Source: a virus
IMG/VR virus record: IMGVR_UViG_3300025818_000058
Coordinates: 1 to 38,328 of that record
Reading direction: 5' to 3' (one strand)
DNA length: 38,328 nucleotides
The position numbers and the translations under genes are program-made. Positions 29,101 through 36,943 of the stretch are shown here, piece after piece. Numbering within the stretch: position 1 is the stretch's first letter; every line of letters starts with the position of its first letter. Below the pieces are notes generated by a model, which was not told where the DNA came from, ran no database searches, and was given only the letters and a program-made list of their open reading frames with translations.

Positions 29101-29260
29101 TGCTGAAAACATGGAAGGGTTTGTGAGGATTTTAGACCTTGTAAAAGGTTTTTTCGATGTGACGCTACTAATTACTCATATAGAATCTCTAAAAGACATA
29201 GTAGATACGACTATTGAGATTTCGAAAACAGACGATGGCTATGCCTTCATAAACCAATAG
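26105..29260 (+). CDS. Mre11-Rad50 (gp47-gp46 / SbcD-SbcC) single-chain fusion
   Basis: One 1,051-residue frame holds both subunits. Residues 1-~300 are a calcineurin-like nuclease: D8 and H10 (ADTHI), D44 (CGDIAH), N79-H80-D81 (GNHD), LYHGAI, then GDIHKTQ and YAGSTIQQNFGE. Residues ~300-360 are a linker/Rad50-binding-like region. From ~362 a Rad50 ATPase begins: Walker A GKNYSGKSS (397-405), coiled coils ~570-720 and ~745-900 around C721 and C729, signature NGSGAEK (960-966), Walker B IFILDEP (D992, E993), D-loop ALDAEN and H-loop ITHIE. T4 gp47 (~339) and gp46 (~560) are separate genes. The complex resects DNA ends for recombination-dependent replication and degrades host DNA. The GDIH motif where many Mre11 proteins have GHIH, and the long C-x7-C hook, are deviations. 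Confidence 0.92.
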   Translation: MKFAHIADTHIKNLKYHKEYRDVFSQLYKTLKDQKVDYIIHCGDIAHTKTQISPEFVELCSEFLKNLAEIAPTYIILGNHDGNLRNSFRQDAITPIVDALDHPNLHLLKNAGETHLNDDFCLNVLSVFDEDNWVKPSNPNKINIGLYHGAIRNSRTDIGFILEHGEHDLSIFEDFDFGFLGDIHKTQSLDHKARVAYAGSTIQQNFGETQDKGIFIWDIQSKDEWTRTKFDFVNPKPFITINLTNSGRIPNGFTCPDGARLRLVANANIPLEKLRRAVDIAKHRFKPESITFLNKANTGDLTASGKVGSEIFENLRDEKVQQDLIKEYLKEFNPTEETLNEVFALNSKYNKVVEESEDISRNVHWKIKKFEWDNLFNYGEGNSIDFDNLSGTVGIFGKNYSGKSSVIDSLLYTIYNNTSKNIRKTYNIINQNKDWGAGKVEIEANNKIYTITRKSDKYTKKLKGKVTDEAKTQADFDYVDQVSGEVGSLNQTERGGTDKAIRNVFGDMEDFLITSMSSQMGALSFINEGSTRRKEILAKFLDLELFEKKFKLAKDDAADLKGSLRRIQDIDYDSLIDQVKKDLFTEEANLLKQKNLCTKLKADLTFVRDEISALETQLNQVPSELASMAHVEEKLVQATNKKSRLETEIDSFNKLIEEKEAFLNKCDALLETIDIVDLNKKEKDFDTIQKEIDELISKKTKEDSNLFIYTKQTGILSGIPCGDSYLTTCKFIKDANDSTNHIPLVEKVIKEIEAKIEEKEGEASSLDVEKVKKTIDNFNRLTQKRKEEDSQLSIIKVKLDLSKTGLANCLKEIEEINKTIEEANKNKEAIENFERITEELTKKKKDLSGVEKNLEDCEEKVYSLVAQLGATEQKKRNLEEQKESKIQMNREFSAYDLFMTCMHSNGIAFDVIKRALPVINTEIAKVLSNVVEFEVFFENNENKLDIQIKHPKHDPRPLENGSGAEKTLAAIAIRIALLNMSNLPKGNIFILDEPGTALDAENMEGFVRILDLVKGFFDVTLLITHIESLKDIVDTTIEISKTDDGYAFINQ

Positions 29261-29320
29261 GAAAGGAAATAGGATGAAAATCACAAAAGACTATCTAAAA
29301 AGACTAATCAAAGAGGAAAT
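29210..29320 (+). repeat. Duplicated boundary segment, copy A (native Rad50 end + leader + tag)
   Basis: This segment comprises the last 16 codons and stop of the Rad50-like gene, the 13-base leader with AGGAAATAGG, and the first 15-16 codons of the tagged gene at 29274. It recurs at 29618-29729 with four substitutions and one inserted base by hand alignment. The shorter copy C (30083-30153) and the tag-only copy D (30726-30776) are related. Confidence 0.9.
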
Positions 29321-29612
29321 TACCAGAAAAAATCTAAGAGAGTCACTGGCTGACGAATTTAATGCTGCCGCAGAGCAGCACTTGGGTTCTACCTCGAAAA
29401 CAAATAATGAATTGAATGATCTTGCAGATACTGTTATCGATAAAATGAATGATGGATTGTCAGCACAGAAGGCTAAAGAACTACTTGATCAAATTACCTT
29501 TAAGGCAGACGGTCGCGGCGGCGAAACTTCAACTGACGCTGTTATCAAGCTTGTTTCACAAAAAGACTCAGAAAAAGGTAAAATGCTTAATCAAGTAAAT
29601 ACGCTTAGATAA
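29274..29612 (+). CDS. Tagged small protein A
   Basis: 112 residues. Residues 1-15 are MKITKDYLKRLIKEE, the tag shared with the genes at 29683, 30108 and 30726. The body is not recognised: soluble, helical, rich in Ala/Asp/Lys/Asn, with no membrane segment or enzyme motif. AGGAAATAGG immediately upstream supplies the ribosome site. The tag is amphipathic and contains I-K-E followed by Glu, resembling the T4 capsid-targeting leader (MKTYQEFIAE), which prohead protease gp21 cuts after an [IL]xE motif. I infer, without proof, that the body (from about residue 16) is head-packaged cargo. The stop is immediately followed by a mini-frame that repeats the end of the Rad50-like gene. Confidence 0.75.
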   Translation: MKITKDYLKRLIKEEITRKNLRESLADEFNAAAEQHLGSTSKTNNELNDLADTVIDKMNDGLSAQKAKELLDQITFKADGRGGETSTDAVIKLVSQKDSEKGKMLNQVNTLR

Positions 29613-29668
29613 TGACAACTATTGAGATTTCTAAAACAGACGAGGGCTATGCCTTCATAAACCAATAA
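29612..29668 (+). pseudogene. 18-codon remnant of the Rad50-like 3' end, still open
   Basis: ATG 29612 overlaps the previous TAA in the TAATG form used throughout the window, and the frame runs MTTIEISKTDEGYAFINQ then TAA. The last 17 residues match the last 17 of the Mre11-Rad50 fusion (TTIEISKTDDGYAFINQ) with one conservative Asp-to-Glu change. The other differences are synonymous (ACG/ACA, TCG/TCT) or keep a stop (TAG/TAA). It is either a recent duplication remnant or a translated micropeptide; I favour the former. Confidence 0.8.
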
Positions 29669-29729
29669 GGAAAGGAAATAGGATGAGAATCACAAAAGAC
29701 TATCTAAAAAGAATAATCAAAGAGGAAAT
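29618..29729 (+). repeat. Duplicated boundary segment, copy B
   Basis: Near-identical to 29210-29320: Rad50-like 3' end remnant, leader and tag. Differences by eye are G/T, T/G, one inserted A at the stop, A/G in codon 2 of the tag (Lys/Arg) and C/A in codon 11 (Leu/Ile). This is homology at the DNA level, not convergent protein similarity. Confidence 0.9.
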
Positions 29730-30033
29730 GAAAAAGATTCGTTATACTAGACCAGAAGATTATAAAAATGACCCATCATGGGAGCCAGATGTAGAGGTTG
29801 ATGATTACGATGAGGAACCGGAATCAAGTGGAACCAATAGAGGCGATGCTGAAAGATTTCTGGATCGTCTCGAAAGAAAACTTCCAAATCTTTACAATTT
29901 TATTGATTCAGACTACCGCGACGAATTTATTAAGGCAGCCGCAGACCTGCAAAGAAACAAAGGACTTCAAGGTAGGATGAACACCTCTCTAGTTGATGGA
30001 GACATCGCAGAGATTCTCAACAAGATCCTTTAA
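29683..30033 (+). CDS. Tagged small protein B (acidic)
   Basis: 116 residues. The tag MRITKDYLKRIIKEE differs from that of protein A at two positions. Residues 24-50 are very acidic (for example EVDDYDEEPESS), then a helical domain with RFLDRLERKL and a C-terminal helix ending IAEILNKIL. No family is recognised. The strongly acidic stretch next to the tag recalls the acidic stretch of the tagged protein at 30726, which could mean DNA mimicry or simple solubility. It uses the same AGGAAATAGG leader as genes A and C. Its stop is followed by a broken copy of the start of the holin-like gene. Confidence 0.75.
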   Translation: MRITKDYLKRIIKEEMKKIRYTRPEDYKNDPSWEPDVEVDDYDEEPESSGTNRGDAERFLDRLERKLPNLYNFIDSDYRDEFIKAAADLQRNKGLQGRMNTSLVDGDIAEILNKIL

Positions 30034-30034
30034 C

Positions 30035-30081
30035 TGATGCCAGCAATAAAAGCATTCACAGATAAAAACTTGTAGAAATTC
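30035..30081 (+). pseudogene. Broken copy of the start of the holin-like gene
   Basis: TGATGCCAGCAATAAAAGCA at 30035-30054 is identical to the start region of the holin-like gene at 30995, and similarity continues to AAATTC at 30081. Read from ATG 30037 it gives MPAIKAFTDKNL then TAG, against MPAIKAFADEHLEKF in the intact gene; the intact GAG codon aligns with the TAG. After 30081 the sequence switches to a remnant of the Rad50-like gene's final codons and the tag leader. Confidence 0.88.
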
Positions 30082-30082
30082 T

Positions 30083-30153
30083 ATAAACCAATAGGAAAGG
30101 AAATAGGATGAAAATCACAAAAGACTATCTAAAAAGACTTATTAAGGAAGAGA
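30083..30153 (+). repeat. Duplicated boundary segment, copy C
   Basis: ATAAACCAATAGGAAAGGAA at 30083-30102 and the following ATAGG are identical to the last codons and leader at the native Rad50-like boundary, and lead into the tag of the pentapeptide gene. The 3' part (AGACTTATTAA, GATCGCC) is closest to copy D at 30726, so C and D are sister copies. Confidence 0.85.
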
Positions 30154-30974
30154 TCGCCAAGACCTCTATGACGAACAAGGAAATTAAAGAAGTTCTCGAT
30201 CTTCATAAAGCATGGCTTGATTCTAACGGCGCAGAAGGCGAAAGGGCCAACCTGAGGGGAGCCAACCTGAGGAAAGCCAACCTGGAAGAAGCCGACCTGA
30301 GGAAAGCCGACCTGAGGAAAGCCAACCTGAAAGAAGCCGAGATGACGTATGCCAACCTGAGTGGAGCCGACCTGAGGGGAGCCGAGATGTTGTTGGTCAA
30401 CCTGTGGAAAGCCGACCTGAGTGAAGCCAAACTGAGTGATGCCTTCTTGTTCAACGCCAACATGCTGTATGCCGACCTGACGGGAGCCGACCTGAGGGGA
30501 GCCTTGATGCACAGAGCGAAACTGAATGCAGCCAACCTGAGTGGAGCCGACCTGGAAGAAGCCGACTTGAAAGATGCCAACCTGTGGAATGCTGACCTGA
30601 GGTATGCCAACCTGAGGAATGCCAACCTGAGTGGAGCCAACCTGAGGAATGCCGACCTGGACAGTGTTAAACTGGACGGGGCCAAACTGGACGGGGCCAT
30701 TTTACCTAAAATACAGGAAAATAAAATGAAAATTACAAAAGGTTATCTAAAAAGACTTATTAAAGAACAGATCGCCGCAATGGATGACGACGATGATTAC
30801 AAGGTAGGCGACTTTTTAGAAATATTAATCAGTGACGACGGCGAGCGTTCCTTTGAGAAAGTAGAAAGCCCAGGTAATGAACACACAACAAATTATACTA
30901 GGAGTTACCCGACTTCATTTAAAGCATTGGTCAAGATTGAAAAAATCGCAAAGCCCGAATATTCAGATGATTAA
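30108..30974 (+). CDS. Tagged pentapeptide-repeat protein, fused in frame to a further tagged protein
   Basis: The 288-codon frame has four parts. Residues 1-15 are the tag MKITKDYLKRLIKEE. Residues 22-46 (KEVLDLHKAWLDSN then GERAN) are the lead-in often seen before bacterial pentapeptide repeats. Residues 47-201 are 31 consecutive A[ND]Lxx pentapeptides in unbroken phase, expected to form a right-handed quadrilateral beta-helix. From M207 a second tag (MKITKGYLKRLIKEQ), an Asp run and an unrecognised 60-residue domain follow. Some pentapeptide proteins (Qnr, MfpA) mimic DNA and bind gyrase, but most have no known role, so no activity is assigned. A separate start at ATG 30726 is possible, so the full fusion may be only one of two products. 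Its Leu codons are mostly CTG, unlike its neighbours. Confidence 0.85.
   Translation: MKITKDYLKRLIKEEIAKTSMTNKEIKEVLDLHKAWLDSNGAEGERANLRGANLRKANLEEADLRKADLRKANLKEAEMTYANLSGADLRGAEMLLVNLWKADLSEAKLSDAFLFNANMLYADLTGADLRGALMHRAKLNAANLSGADLEEADLKDANLWNADLRYANLRNANLSGANLRNADLDSVKLDGAKLDGAILPKIQENKMKITKGYLKRLIKEQIAAMDDDDDYKVGDFLEILISDDGERSFEKVESPGNEHTTNYTRSYPTSFKALVKIEKIAKPEYSDD
30246..30710 (+). repeat. 31 tandem 15-bp units (pentapeptide coding repeat)
   Basis: Thirty-one contiguous degenerate 15-bp units of the form GCC-[AG]AC-CTG-x-x. Several neighbours are almost identical, for example GCCAACCTGAGGAAAGCC against GCCGACCTGAGGAAAGCC. The alternating GCC/CTG codons make the block clearly more GC-rich than flanking phage DNA. 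There are no spacers, so it is not CRISPR. Confidence 0.92.
30726..30776 (+). repeat. Tag repeat, copy D (tag only)
   Basis: DNA resembling the tag-coding part of copies A-C (ATGAAAATTACAAAAGGTTA, then the conserved AAAAAGACTTATTAA and AGATCGCC). It lacks the Rad50-end remnant and the AGGAAATAGG leader seen before the other three. Confidence 0.85.
30726..30974 (+). CDS. Possible separately translated tagged protein D (internal start)
   Basis: 82 residues in the same frame as the pentapeptide gene, starting at an internal ATG with AGGAAA at 30715-30720 upstream. It begins with MKITKGYLKRLIKEQ, exactly where the other tagged proteins start, followed by DDDDDY and an unrecognised small domain (VGDFLEIL, then SFKALVKIEKI). 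Because the tag elsewhere is always N-terminal, I think the ancestral gene began here and the upstream stop was lost or never formed. Translation could be from this start, by read-through as a fusion, or both. If protease cleavage after IKE occurs, the fusion would be split here. Confidence 0.55.
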   Translation: MKITKGYLKRLIKEQIAAMDDDDDYKVGDFLEILISDDGERSFEKVESPGNEHTTNYTRSYPTSFKALVKIEKIAKPEYSDD

Positions 30975-30992
30975 ACAACCAGAGAGGATAAA

Positions 30993-31187
30993 ATGATGCC
31001 AGCAATAAAAGCATTCGCAGACGAACACTTAGAGAAATTCATTTCAAAGAAGCTCTTGGTGTGGCTCACAACAACAGGACTACTCCTTGCCGAGAAAGTC
31101 ACAGCAGAACAGTGGGTTATTATTGCTTCTGCTTATGTCGGAACACAAGGCTTCGTTGATGTTGTAGCTCGCCTAAAGGGAAAATAA
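30993..31187 (+). CDS. Small holin-like membrane protein
   Basis: 64 residues. Two hydrophobic segments, LLVWLTTTGLLLA and WVIIASAYVGTQGFVDVV, are separated by a short charged loop, with a basic C-terminus (RLKGK). This is the size and layout of small phage holins, which make holes in the inner membrane at lysis, but no endolysin is present in this window. Two ATGs (30993, 30996) are in tandem behind GAGAGGA; the duplicated fragment at 30035 conserves only the second, so 30996 may be the true start. It is followed one base later by another membrane protein. Confidence 0.6.
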   Translation: MMPAIKAFADEHLEKFISKKLLVWLTTTGLLLAEKVTAEQWVIIASAYVGTQGFVDVVARLKGK

Positions 31188-31188
31188 A

Positions 31189-31593
31189 ATGAACTGGCTA
31201 ATAGCCAAACAAGTCCTTCAAAAGACTTGGTTCTACATAAAGAATTATTGGTGGGTAGCAGGGCTAATAGCAATTGGCTTTGTTATCCACAAGTTTTTTA
31301 TGTTCGACAAAAACCCTTTCGAACACCTTTACAAAAAGAAAGTAAAACAAGCCGAAAAAGAAAAGAAGGTTATAGAGCAAGCCCATCAAGAAGAAAGGAT
31401 TGAAAAAACCAGAGCAGTAGAAGACTACAAGGTTGCTCTAAAAGCTCTTGAAGAAGAACGAAAAGAAGCAGGCGAAATAGTCAAGGAAGAAGAGAAAAAG
31501 AGAATAAAAGAAATAGTTGCCATGCCAGAAGAAGACAGGGTTAAAACTTTAGCCGACGAATTTGGCTTGGAAATAGTGGAGGTAGAAGAATGA
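31189..31593 (+). CDS. Membrane-anchored coiled-coil protein (spanin-like layout)
   Basis: 134 residues. One transmembrane helix lies at about residues 20-39 (WWVAGLIAIGFVIHKFFMF), followed by a highly charged Glu/Lys coiled coil (about 48-115) and an acidic end. This N-in, coiled-coil-out layout is that of inner-membrane spanins (Rz type), which help break the outer membrane, but many unrelated phage proteins look alike. It sits directly after the holin-like gene, and AGGGAA inside that gene's end serves as ribosome site. The stop overlaps the next gene (ATGA at 31590-31593). Lysis function is inferred only. Confidence 0.6.
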   Translation: MNWLIAKQVLQKTWFYIKNYWWVAGLIAIGFVIHKFFMFDKNPFEHLYKKKVKQAEKEKKVIEQAHQEERIEKTRAVEDYKVALKALEEERKEAGEIVKEEEKKRIKEIVAMPEEDRVKTLADEFGLEIVEVEE

Positions 31594-32054
31594 AAGAAAT
31601 GAAGTTAATTATGGAAAACTTCAATAGATTCTTATTGACTGAACAAAAAGTTAGTTATTCAGGTGTTGTTTTAGATGATGAGAGTGTTCAAAAATTAAAA
31701 GAAGCAGCAAAAAAATTTGGAGTCCCAGAGGGGTTTGTTTTTAAAACAAAGGCTGGCGAACCTCTTCCTCACCATATGACAATTACACTTGGTCCTTTGG
31801 GTGATTTTAGCACCAATTATCCTGTTGGGGAAGAAATAACTTTAGAGGCGACACACATTGGAGCAGATGAAAGAGCAATGGCTGTAAAGGTTGAACCACC
31901 CGCAGCAATTTCAAAAAAAATAGCTTTTCCTCATATAACTTTAGCAATACCAGAAGGGGGTAAGCCATTTTTTTCAAATAAAATTCCAGAAGAAAATTTT
32001 AAAGAGCTTTCCGAGAAAATTGAATTAAAAGGAAAAGTAGAAGAGGTAAAATGA
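31590..32054 (+). CDS. 2H-phosphoesterase-like protein with N-terminal leader
   Basis: 154 residues. Two H-x-T motifs are spaced as in the 2H phosphoesterase superfamily: H62-M-T64 in PHHMTITLGP and H115-I-T117 in FPHITLAIPE, with the GGKPFFSN segment afterwards. 2H enzymes act on 2',3'-cyclic or 2'-5' phosphodiesters; family members include RNA ligase/CPDase-like enzymes and phage Acb1, which destroys CBASS cyclic nucleotides. The first 18 residues contain MKLIMENFNRFLLTE, different from the ITKDY tag but again a short amphipathic leader ending in LxE. The start at 31590 has GGAGG seven bases upstream and overlaps the previous stop. Substrate is unknown. Confidence 0.7.
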   Translation: MKEMKLIMENFNRFLLTEQKVSYSGVVLDDESVQKLKEAAKKFGVPEGFVFKTKAGEPLPHHMTITLGPLGDFSTNYPVGEEITLEATHIGADERAMAVKVEPPAAISKKIAFPHITLAIPEGGKPFFSNKIPEENFKELSEKIELKGKVEEVK

Positions 32055-34978: not shown

Positions 34979-36943
34979 ATGGCAGACCAAAGTAGAAATC
35001 CAAGAAATAATGTTTCTCCACTTTTTAAGGCTCTGACAAGAATCTTCTCTGGTCCGATTGTTAATTACAATCAGCGACAAGTAGCTCTTGATAGAAGAAA
35101 CAATTTAAACAAGTATTCAACTAAATTCAAATCACTAGCAGGTTTAGAGTTCAAAAAAGCTCGTTATAATCCCTATGATTACATGCAAACCTCTATTATG
35201 GTTAATCACAATAGAGCAGAGCGATACTTAGACTTTGATCAAATGGAATATACACCAGAGCTAGCTTCTGCTTTGGACATTTATGCTGATGAAATGACCA
35301 CTCACAGCATTTTAACTCCACTTCTAAAGATCGACTGTCACAATCAAGAAATCAAATCAATTCTAGAAGAACTTTACTATAATGTTCTCAACATTGAATC
35401 CAATCTATTCAGTTGGTGTCGTAACATGTGTAAGTATGGAGATTACTTTCTTTACTTAGATGTTGACGATAAGATGGGAATTACTTCTGTTATCGGCCTT
35501 CCAATGAGAGAAATCGAGAGGTTGGAGGGTGAAGATAAGTCTAATCCCAATTATGTCCAATTCCAATGGAATAGTGGTGGTTTGACTTTTGAAAACTGGC
35601 AAATGGCTCACTTCCGCATTTTAGGAAATGACAAGTATGCTCCATATGGAACATCAGTTCTAGAATCAGCCCGTCGAATTTGGAGACAATTGACTCTAAT
35701 GGAAGATGCGATGATGGCTTACAGAATCGTAAGAGCACCAGAAAGAAGAGTCTTTAAGATTGATGTTGGTGGCATCCCCCCAGAGGATGTCGAGCAATTT
35801 ATGCAGAAAACCATTACCAATATGAAGAGACACACTCTTGTTGATGCTCAAACTGGCAACATGGATCTTCGCTATAACCCAATGTCAGTAGAAGAAGATT
35901 ACTATCTACCAGTTAGAAACGGATCAGCAACAGAAATTGTAAATCTCCCTGGTGGAACCAATGCTGCTGCTATTGATGATGTAAATTACTTAAGAGACAA
36001 GCTGTTTTCAGCTATTAAGATTCCAAAGTCTTATCTTTCACAGCTAGATCAAATGCCCGAAGAGAAGACAACTCTAGCTCAAAAGGACATTCGCTTTGCT
36101 AGAACCATCCAAAGACTACAGAGATCAGTTATTGCAGAGTTGGAGAAGATTGGTATTATTCATCTTTACACTCTAGGTTACAGAGGCGAAGACATTCTTT
36201 CATTTGATCTCGTTCTAAACAACCCAAGCAAATTAGCCCAGATCCAAGAACTTGAGTTTATCAAGCAGAAGTTTGAGGTGGCTGGATCGGCCCAGGACAC
36301 AATGTTTAGCCGTCGTTGGATTGCTCAAAACATCTTTGGCATGGATAACGAAGAATTCCTCAGAAATCAAAGAGAGAGATTCTTTGATAAGAAGATTGAC
36401 AAACAACTTGAAGCCGCCGCCGAAGAACCAGCTTTTGAAGGCTCGCCATCTGATGGTGGAGCCGCCGAAGGTATGGGTGGAGCATTGGGCGAGGAAGGCT
36501 CAGAAGCCGCTCTAGGAGGCGGCGCAGACCTTGGAGGGGAACTTGGTGGGGCAGGCGAAGAACTCGCACCAGAAGCCGCCCCAGAGGCTCCGGCAGCAGA
36601 GGAAGAAAAGACCCCGCTTCTAGTTGAGCCAGGAGCAGCCAAAAGAGACGATGGTATGAGTCCCGTTAAAATGACTTTCAAAGATGGAACAGAAATGTAT
36701 ATGGGCGCTGGAAAAGGCAAAAAGTATAAGCCTGTCCCATTATTCAAAGATGGTCGTAAATCTGCTGGTCATTTAAAAAATGCTTTAAGCACCGCAGGCA
36801 AATCAAAAGACATAGGACAATTAGGTCGAGGCTTAGTTGAGAACAAGGAAACTATTTATAATAGTTTAGCAGCCCAGTTAGAATCATTGACTGAAAGGGC
36901 AAATAAGATAGTCAATGAACTGGAGAAGGAAGATGAATTTTAA
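34979..36943 (+). CDS. 20: Portal protein (gp20-like) with long low-complexity C-terminal extension
   Basis: 654 residues against 524 in T4. The N-terminal and core patterns of the T4 portal family are present: YTPELASALDIYADE (91-105), SLFSWCRNMCKYGD-type helix, and SAIKIPKSYL in the clip/stem region. Twelve copies would form the head vertex channel through which terminase packages DNA. From about residue 478 to 550 the sequence is almost wholly Ala/Gly/Glu/Pro (for example GGALGEEGSEAALGGGADLG), followed by ~100 residues with a beta-hairpin-like VKMTFKDGTEMYMG segment and a helical end. That extension is absent in T4. It directly follows terL, a standard order. Confidence 0.92.
   Translation: MADQSRNPRNNVSPLFKALTRIFSGPIVNYNQRQVALDRRNNLNKYSTKFKSLAGLEFKKARYNPYDYMQTSIMVNHNRAERYLDFDQMEYTPELASALDIYADEMTTHSILTPLLKIDCHNQEIKSILEELYYNVLNIESNLFSWCRNMCKYGDYFLYLDVDDKMGITSVIGLPMREIERLEGEDKSNPNYVQFQWNSGGLTFENWQMAHFRILGNDKYAPYGTSVLESARRIWRQLTLMEDAMMAYRIVRAPERRVFKIDVGGIPPEDVEQFMQKTITNMKRHTLVDAQTGNMDLRYNPMSVEEDYYLPVRNGSATEIVNLPGGTNAAAIDDVNYLRDKLFSAIKIPKSYLSQLDQMPEEKTTLAQKDIRFARTIQRLQRSVIAELEKIGIIHLYTLGYRGEDILSFDLVLNNPSKLAQIQELEFIKQKFEVAGSAQDTMFSRRWIAQNIFGMDNEEFLRNQRERFFDKKIDKQLEAAAEEPAFEGSPSDGGAAEGMGGALGEEGSEAALGGGADLGGELGGAGEELAPEAAPEAPAAEEEKTPLLVEPGAAKRDDGMSPVKMTFKDGTEMYMGAGKGKKYKPVPLFKDGRKSAGHLKNALSTAGKSKDIGQLGRGLVENKETIYNSLAAQLESLTERANKIVNELEKEDEF

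Follow-up and report, generated by a model that had tools for sequence, protein, structure and literature searches.

We analysed a 38,328-base DNA fragment of an uncultured virus record, from a virus of bacteria (the whole fragment is hereafter called the window), in which small genes with unrelated products, sharing one short N-terminal sequence (the tag), are stacked between a gene with a Rad50-like ATPase domain and that for a putative holin. From left to right, this interval contains gene A, then gene B preceded by a Rad50-end remnant, then a holin-start remnant and a short Rad50-tail remnant, and lastly gene C, to which gene D is fused in frame (Table 1). The direct repeats that the original prediction had reported for the Rad50 end and the holin start are present where it placed them, while its two gene labels call for qualification: the 'Rad50' gene encodes a fusion of an Mre11-like phosphoesterase with a Rad50-like ATPase, and the 'holin', for which neither Pfam nor PHROG returned a match, is so named by size and hydrophobicity only. 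The Rad50-end repeat at positions 29207-29269 returns at 29615-29677 with a 53-nt core at 94% identity; read in frame as TTIEISKTDEGYAFINQ followed by a stop, this remnant is a copy of the final 17 Rad50 codons with the stop kept. The holin-start repeat at 30991-31040 returns at 30032-30081 with about 86-87% identity (over ~47 nt) and runs into an early stop, and the third Rad50 remnant, upstream of gene C, comprises no more than the final ~12 nt of the gene together with the ribosome-binding site (RBS) (TATAAACCAATAGGAAAGGAAATA). Over 200 shuffles of the interval, matches reached at most 30/50 for the 50-nt Rad50 end and likewise 30/50 for the 50-nt holin start, whereas 47/50 and 43/50, respectively, were observed, placing the remnant matches far above chance. 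A scan of the interval for inverted repeats between the units found none.

All four genes begin with MKITKDYLKRLIKEE or a sequence close to it, such that the four have ~15 residues in common in front of unrelated bodies. The common pattern in the window, M-[KR]-I-T-K-x-Y-L-K-R-[LI]-I-K-E-[EQ], is referred to below as tag T1; the copy of gene D is internal. At the DNA level, a repeat of ~77 nt comprising RBS and tag is found at 29249, 29658, 30083 and 30701, the last three copies being 86%, 91% and 70% identical to the first, and the RBS and tag regions of the window units are 57-94% identical to one another over 96 nt. C and D together form a single open frame of 288 codons (30108-30974) with the second tag at 30726, preceded by what may be an RBS of its own (CAGGAAAATAAAATG); the product is either a two-tag fusion protein or D is also started internally at 30726. 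T4-type phages have 'mobile regulatory cassettes' in which a promoter and a stem-loop lie between cassettes. Promoter/stem-loop regulatory cassettes were rejected for the present interval, in which a scan found neither a terminator-like site on the + strand nor any excess of promoters at unit boundaries.

Table 1. Features of the Rad50-holin interval of the window and of its surroundings.
Feature	Position	Strand	Basis
Left fixed neighbour: Mre11-like phosphoesterase fused to Rad50/SMC-like ATPase, 1051 aa	26105..29260	+	Pfam PF00149 E 2.7e-12, PF02463 E 1e-5
Gene A: tag T1 and 90-aa body of unknown family	29274..29612	+	Open reading frame; homologue search
Rad50 3'-end remnant (TTIEISKTDEGYAFINQ, stop) and RBS, ahead of gene B	29615..29677	+	Repeat alignment
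Gene B: tag T1 and acidic 94-aa body, net charge -11	29683..30033	+	Open reading frame; allele differs in L004
Holin-start remnant with early stop	30032..30081	+	Repeat alignment
Short Rad50-tail remnant (TATAAACCAATAG) and RBS, ahead of gene C	30082..30107	+	Alignment with units A and B
Gene C: tag T1 and pentapeptide-repeat body, 206 codons without stop	30108..30725	+	Pfam PF00805 E 1.1e-50
Gene D: internal second tag copy (MKITKGYLKRLIKEQ) and acidic 60-aa body, in frame with C	30726..30974	+	Alignment of relatives
Right fixed neighbour: intact 64-aa putative holin	30993..31187	+	40 relatives at 48-100% identity
Fifth tagged gene nearby: tag T2 (MKEMKLIMENFNRFLLTEQ) and 2H-phosphoesterase-like body	31590..32054	+	Same body with T1 in L037, L192/L193
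T4-type portal protein	34979..36943	+	Pfam PF07230 E 1.4e-79

A scan with the holin yielded 40 loci, 31 of which carry both the Rad50 end and the holin on the contig. The interval is empty (≤98 nt) in 19 of these 31 relatives, holds one tagged gene in four (L029, L030, L031 and L033), one GIY-YIG homing endonuclease gene in three (L013, L017 and L018), a mixed gene set in two (L037 and L039) and a stack in three (L004, L006 and L007), the stacks of L006 and L007 being the same. The expectation that each relative would carry one tagged gene was thus borne out in four genomes but not in the 19 with an empty interval; many relatives have their tagged genes in the gaps that follow downstream. Tagged genes lie between the holin and the next gene in L008, L011, L019, L022, L023, L025, L028, L030, L032 and L036, and L028 has four in a row after the gene that follows the holin. 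Since these downstream gaps also commonly hold tagged genes, it is the neighbourhood, not only the Rad50-holin gap, that takes them up. In L008, L023, L024 and L032, a conserved cysteine-rich open reading frame (ORF) of ~30 codons (MCGCDNCKCENNCGCDCCCG) overlaps the Rad50 end, where others carry tagged genes.

L004, a relative at 99% identity, shows the three-unit order of the window with another B body, no gene C and a diverged D. DNA identity between the two is 95-100% over the Rad50 end, gene A and the holin, and falls abruptly to ~72% in the B body and to 59-85% in D. Gene C corresponds to a 618-bp insertion (exactly 206 codons) relative to L004 and L005, with tag copies at its bounds; D stands alone in both of these genomes, and in L005, which has no C, it lies directly behind the short Rad50-tail remnant. 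In L006 and L007, where stacking took place independently, the array runs from the intact Rad50 gene through a GIY-YIG gene, a Rad50-end remnant and a tagged gene to a holin start fused to the end of the post-holin gene, and on through a 52-codon ORF and a further Rad50-end remnant to the intact holin. The Rad50-end remnants of these two stacks are 91-94% identical to the Rad50 end of L022 and only 66-71% identical to their own Rad50, and therefore come from another lineage. The mosaic of window and L004, these foreign remnants and the presence of a single gene in 7 of the 31 relatives (four tagged, three GIY-YIG) together support the proposal that alleles were joined at conserved flanks, amended in that the interval does not usually hold just one tagged gene; that the remnants are an assembly artefact is unlikely given that L004 displays the same order with different bodies. 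The RBS variants change in concert: in the window, A, B and C all have AGGATG, and in L004 AAAATG goes with A, B and D. Such uniformity within one genome would be expected were the repeats also to exchange with one another. When 2.9 million viral contigs were searched for homologues, body A was recovered only in L004 and body B in none, such that exact single-gene donors were not found; the same holds for exact donors of B, C and D. A small protein beginning MKVGDLV is encoded within the L006 stack (L006:2177-2335), and similar-looking small proteins stand beside the tag array of L200.

The GIY-YIG genes found in the interval of L013, L017 and L018, and next to a Rad50-end remnant in the L006/L007 stack, raise the possibility that homing endonucleases drive the exchange, the stack being a by-product of homing and co-conversion of the flanks. 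We regard this as conceivable, if on the unlikely side, because the window, L004 and most tagged loci are devoid of an endonuclease. Homing would in any case be compatible, as a trigger, with the cassette exchange proposed below, and offers no alternative to the function proposed there.

The tag extends well beyond this locus, to at least 340 marine phage ORFs that are for the most part unrelated and often arranged in arrays. A degenerate DNA pattern built for it matched at least 120 stretches of viral contigs; in bacterial and archaeal genomes amounting to 257 billion bases, it matched no more than five stretches, which lie on three contigs. Among the matches listed, 362 distinct T1- or T2-tagged ORFs fell into 270 body clusters, as delimited by a BLAST cut-off and including one loose cluster of 48 that may reflect low-complexity linkage. 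Tagged genes form tandem runs of up to 10, and up to 16 tagged ORFs occur within 8-kb loci. The second tag, T2 (MKLIMENFNxFLxE), differs in sequence from T1 and has the [LI]-x-E end in common with it. Tag and cargo are separable: one and the same 2H body is found with T2 in the window, L194 and L195 but with T1 in L037 and L192/L193. The fraction of identical codons in the tag is only 56% between loci.

In the longest arrays seen (L203, L201/L176 and L200), ~12-16 tagged genes encode bodies unrelated to one another. L195 (2590-7066) has a row of seven genes that are T2-tagged or T2-like; among their bodies, judged by eye, are a 2H phosphoesterase, a HAD-like protein and one resembling a nucleotide kinase, which are possibly injected enzymes. 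A third tag, T3 (MKHLRQYIRQILxE), occurs on at least seven neighbouring genes of L199 (reverse strand), on contig NHDW01000006.1; this phage-like contig was binned as a Methylococcaceae metagenome-assembled genome, and the bin holds a T4 portal and an S77 protease. Two adjacent genes of L028 (7973-8560) share 25 identical N-terminal residues (MKITKTLLKQIIKEEYDKESKKQAT) and are wholly different thereafter, as at a fresh tag-to-body junction. A tblastn search for the tags in isolated phages gave nothing convincing, the query being too short; Microcystis phage Mel-JY01, the nearest isolate by Rad50, has no tagged ORF in the 70 kb examined, and a literature search for the strings MKITK and MKLIMEN found no paper.

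The tags end in a recurrent motif. Straight after the T2 core, which was chosen without regard to the motif, [LIF]xE is present in 28 of 29 T2-tagged ORFs. [LI]xE is further found in 100 of the 113 T1-tagged ORFs outside the search pattern, compared to a background of 8% within bodies and 16% in other N-termini, and these ORFs often have a second site as well; the motif also ends six of seven T3 tags. The T1 set was in part gathered with a pattern containing I-K-E, a bias that the unbiased subset of 113 and the T2 count answer. A prohead protease of the S77 family is encoded in 9 of 11 relatives of the window and, among 17 long T1 contigs, in all 11 that have an interior T4-type portal gene and room downstream of it. 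Two of the three genome bins with tag matches hold both a T4-type portal and S77, the third match being a 10-kb contig. In L192, a T1-tagged 2H body lies inside the head gene cluster, 1 kb upstream of the protease gene.

Taken together, we consider it probable that the tags are T4-like capsid-targeting tags on cassettes of injected accessory proteins, swapped and stacked at a hotspot. A cassette would consist of an RBS, an N-terminal tag of about 15-22 residues and an unrelated body. The tag would draw the protein into the prohead core, as does the capsid-targeting sequence (CTS) of the T4 internal proteins, and a protease of the T4 gp21 type (S77) would cut after [LI]-x-E (I-K-E in T1, L-x-E in T2). 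The freed body would then be injected with the DNA, probably to block host defences or to aid take-over of the cell. Co-infecting relatives would recombine in the interval because tag and flanking genes are conserved, and crossing over within the tag or within either flank (Rad50 end or holin start) may replace bodies or join whole alleles, leaving remnants of the flanks. Given that layout, motif, protease and hypervariability all match, the array probably works like the T4 internal protein (ip) system.

Several observations weigh against this reading. The contig ends shortly after the portal gene, before any recognisable prohead protease, such that the protease is seen only in relatives, and the protease association was counted among tag carriers, which are all T4-like, and partly reflects that fact. 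[LI]xE is a short motif, and one that amphipathic helices with many I, K and E residues would frequently contain. No significant sequence similarity links T1 to the T4 CTS, and with sequences this short it would be difficult to demonstrate any. The A, B, C and D bodies have net charges of -4 to -11, and 74% of all tagged bodies are negative, whereas the T4 internal proteins are described as basic, although a basic charge is characteristic of the latter rather than a defining feature. Bodies A, B and D have no known function, and packaging, cleavage, injection and anti-defence activity are inferred.

As to what the bodies might do, a Pfam search on 96 tagged proteins returned few domains (zeta-toxin-like, YkuD, pentapeptide and tRNA-ligase CPD), such that no common function emerges from them. 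Pentapeptide-repeat proteins such as the product of gene C include known DNA mimics. For the T2-tagged 2H protein of the window, a sequence search of the PDB gave nothing useful; its L037 homologue matches PF08302 (E 1.4e-6), and a weak AlphaFold model (pLDDT 66) retrieved CNPase-type 2H folds with Foldseek (E ~4e-4, TM ~0.5). These matches are suggestive only; the protein looks like a 2H phosphodiesterase, which would fit RNA-end or cyclic-nucleotide chemistry. The predicted C-D structure model was unusable (pLDDT 48).

The tag could also serve as another kind of N-terminal handle, namely a membrane-binding amphipathic helix, a helix docking onto a host or phage protein, or a translation leader. 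We find this doubtful. The tag is indeed short, amphipathic and basic, as well as helical in one low-confidence model, and packaging of the tagged proteins is itself only inferred. Against such a role, however, tags of differing sequence interchange while having the [LI]xE end in common, they are confined, as far as testable, to phages with a T4-type portal and S77, and tagged genes occur beside the protease in the head cluster; a leader acting at the nucleotide level, moreover, would not keep an amino-acid motif through the synonymous change that the same-codon fraction reveals. Finally, local tandem duplication, in which an ancestral tagged gene and bits of its flanks were copied in place and diverged past recognition, would account for the RBS and tag common to all units and for the in-step RBS variants but is very improbable, since the bodies are without detectable similarity, yet tag and remnants stand at 86-94%, C is a pentapeptide-repeat protein and no diverged A or B, and the L006 remnants, closer to another phage's Rad50 than to their own, largely refute it.

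Extending the capsid-targeting reading, we lean slightly towards the broader view that, in uncultured marine T4-like phages, a small set of interchangeable tags (T1, T2 and T3), each ending in a prohead-protease site, serves as a general code by which hundreds of unrelated effectors are loaded for injection, their genes being swapped and stacked by recombination via the tag and the conserved flanks. Proteins that a phage injects are the earliest counter-defence to reach the inside of a cell, and outside coliphages few of them are known, as there is no homology between their bodies. Should the tag prove to be a packaging address, hundreds of candidates could be picked from marine virus data at once with a 15-residue pattern; if the loading code holds true, the tag becomes a handle for finding new anti-defence and take-over proteins. 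The stacked locus is a frozen record of cargo gain, with alleles of related phages joined at conserved neighbours and remnants left at the seams.

The closest known counterpart is provided by the internal proteins IPI, IPII and IPIII of T4, which a 10-residue CTS steers into the prohead before gp21 cuts it off (PMC9026906). Once injected, T4 Ip1-3 block type IV restriction enzymes (PMC12373910), and the ip loci of T-even phages are polymorphic (Repoila et al. 1994, cited in PMC12373910). T4 ipII and ipIII lie in tandem beside the lysozyme gene and have an identical N-terminus, MKTYQEFIAEA, and near-identical DNA just upstream. Both systems thus combine one short N-terminal sequence with unrelated bodies, tandem genes with a common tag and upstream DNA, an [LI]xE tag end, a T4-type portal together with an S77 protease, marked variability among close relatives, and a site beside a (here putative) lysis gene. 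T2 loosely resembles MKTYQEFIAEA and T1 does not, the tags being too short for statistics. In contrast to T4, the present phages have other tags (T1, T2 and T3), bodies that are mostly acidic and much more numerous (arrays of 10 or more genes) and remnants of neighbouring genes inside the array, and their tagged proteins are predicted to be packaged. The ejected head proteins of the giant phages phiKZ and SPN3US (PMC9026906) are likewise injected cargo from which a gp21-related protease removes propeptides at a motif ending in E; the phiKZ motif, however, is S/A-x-E, and a short tag common to small cassette genes is not described there (PMC9026906). Experimental segmental amplification in T4 (PMC9391042) offers a parallel for the stacking, as a T4-type phage there too alters its accessory anti-defence content by recombination, but what changes in that case is the copy number of one gene, whereas here different alleles are stacked.

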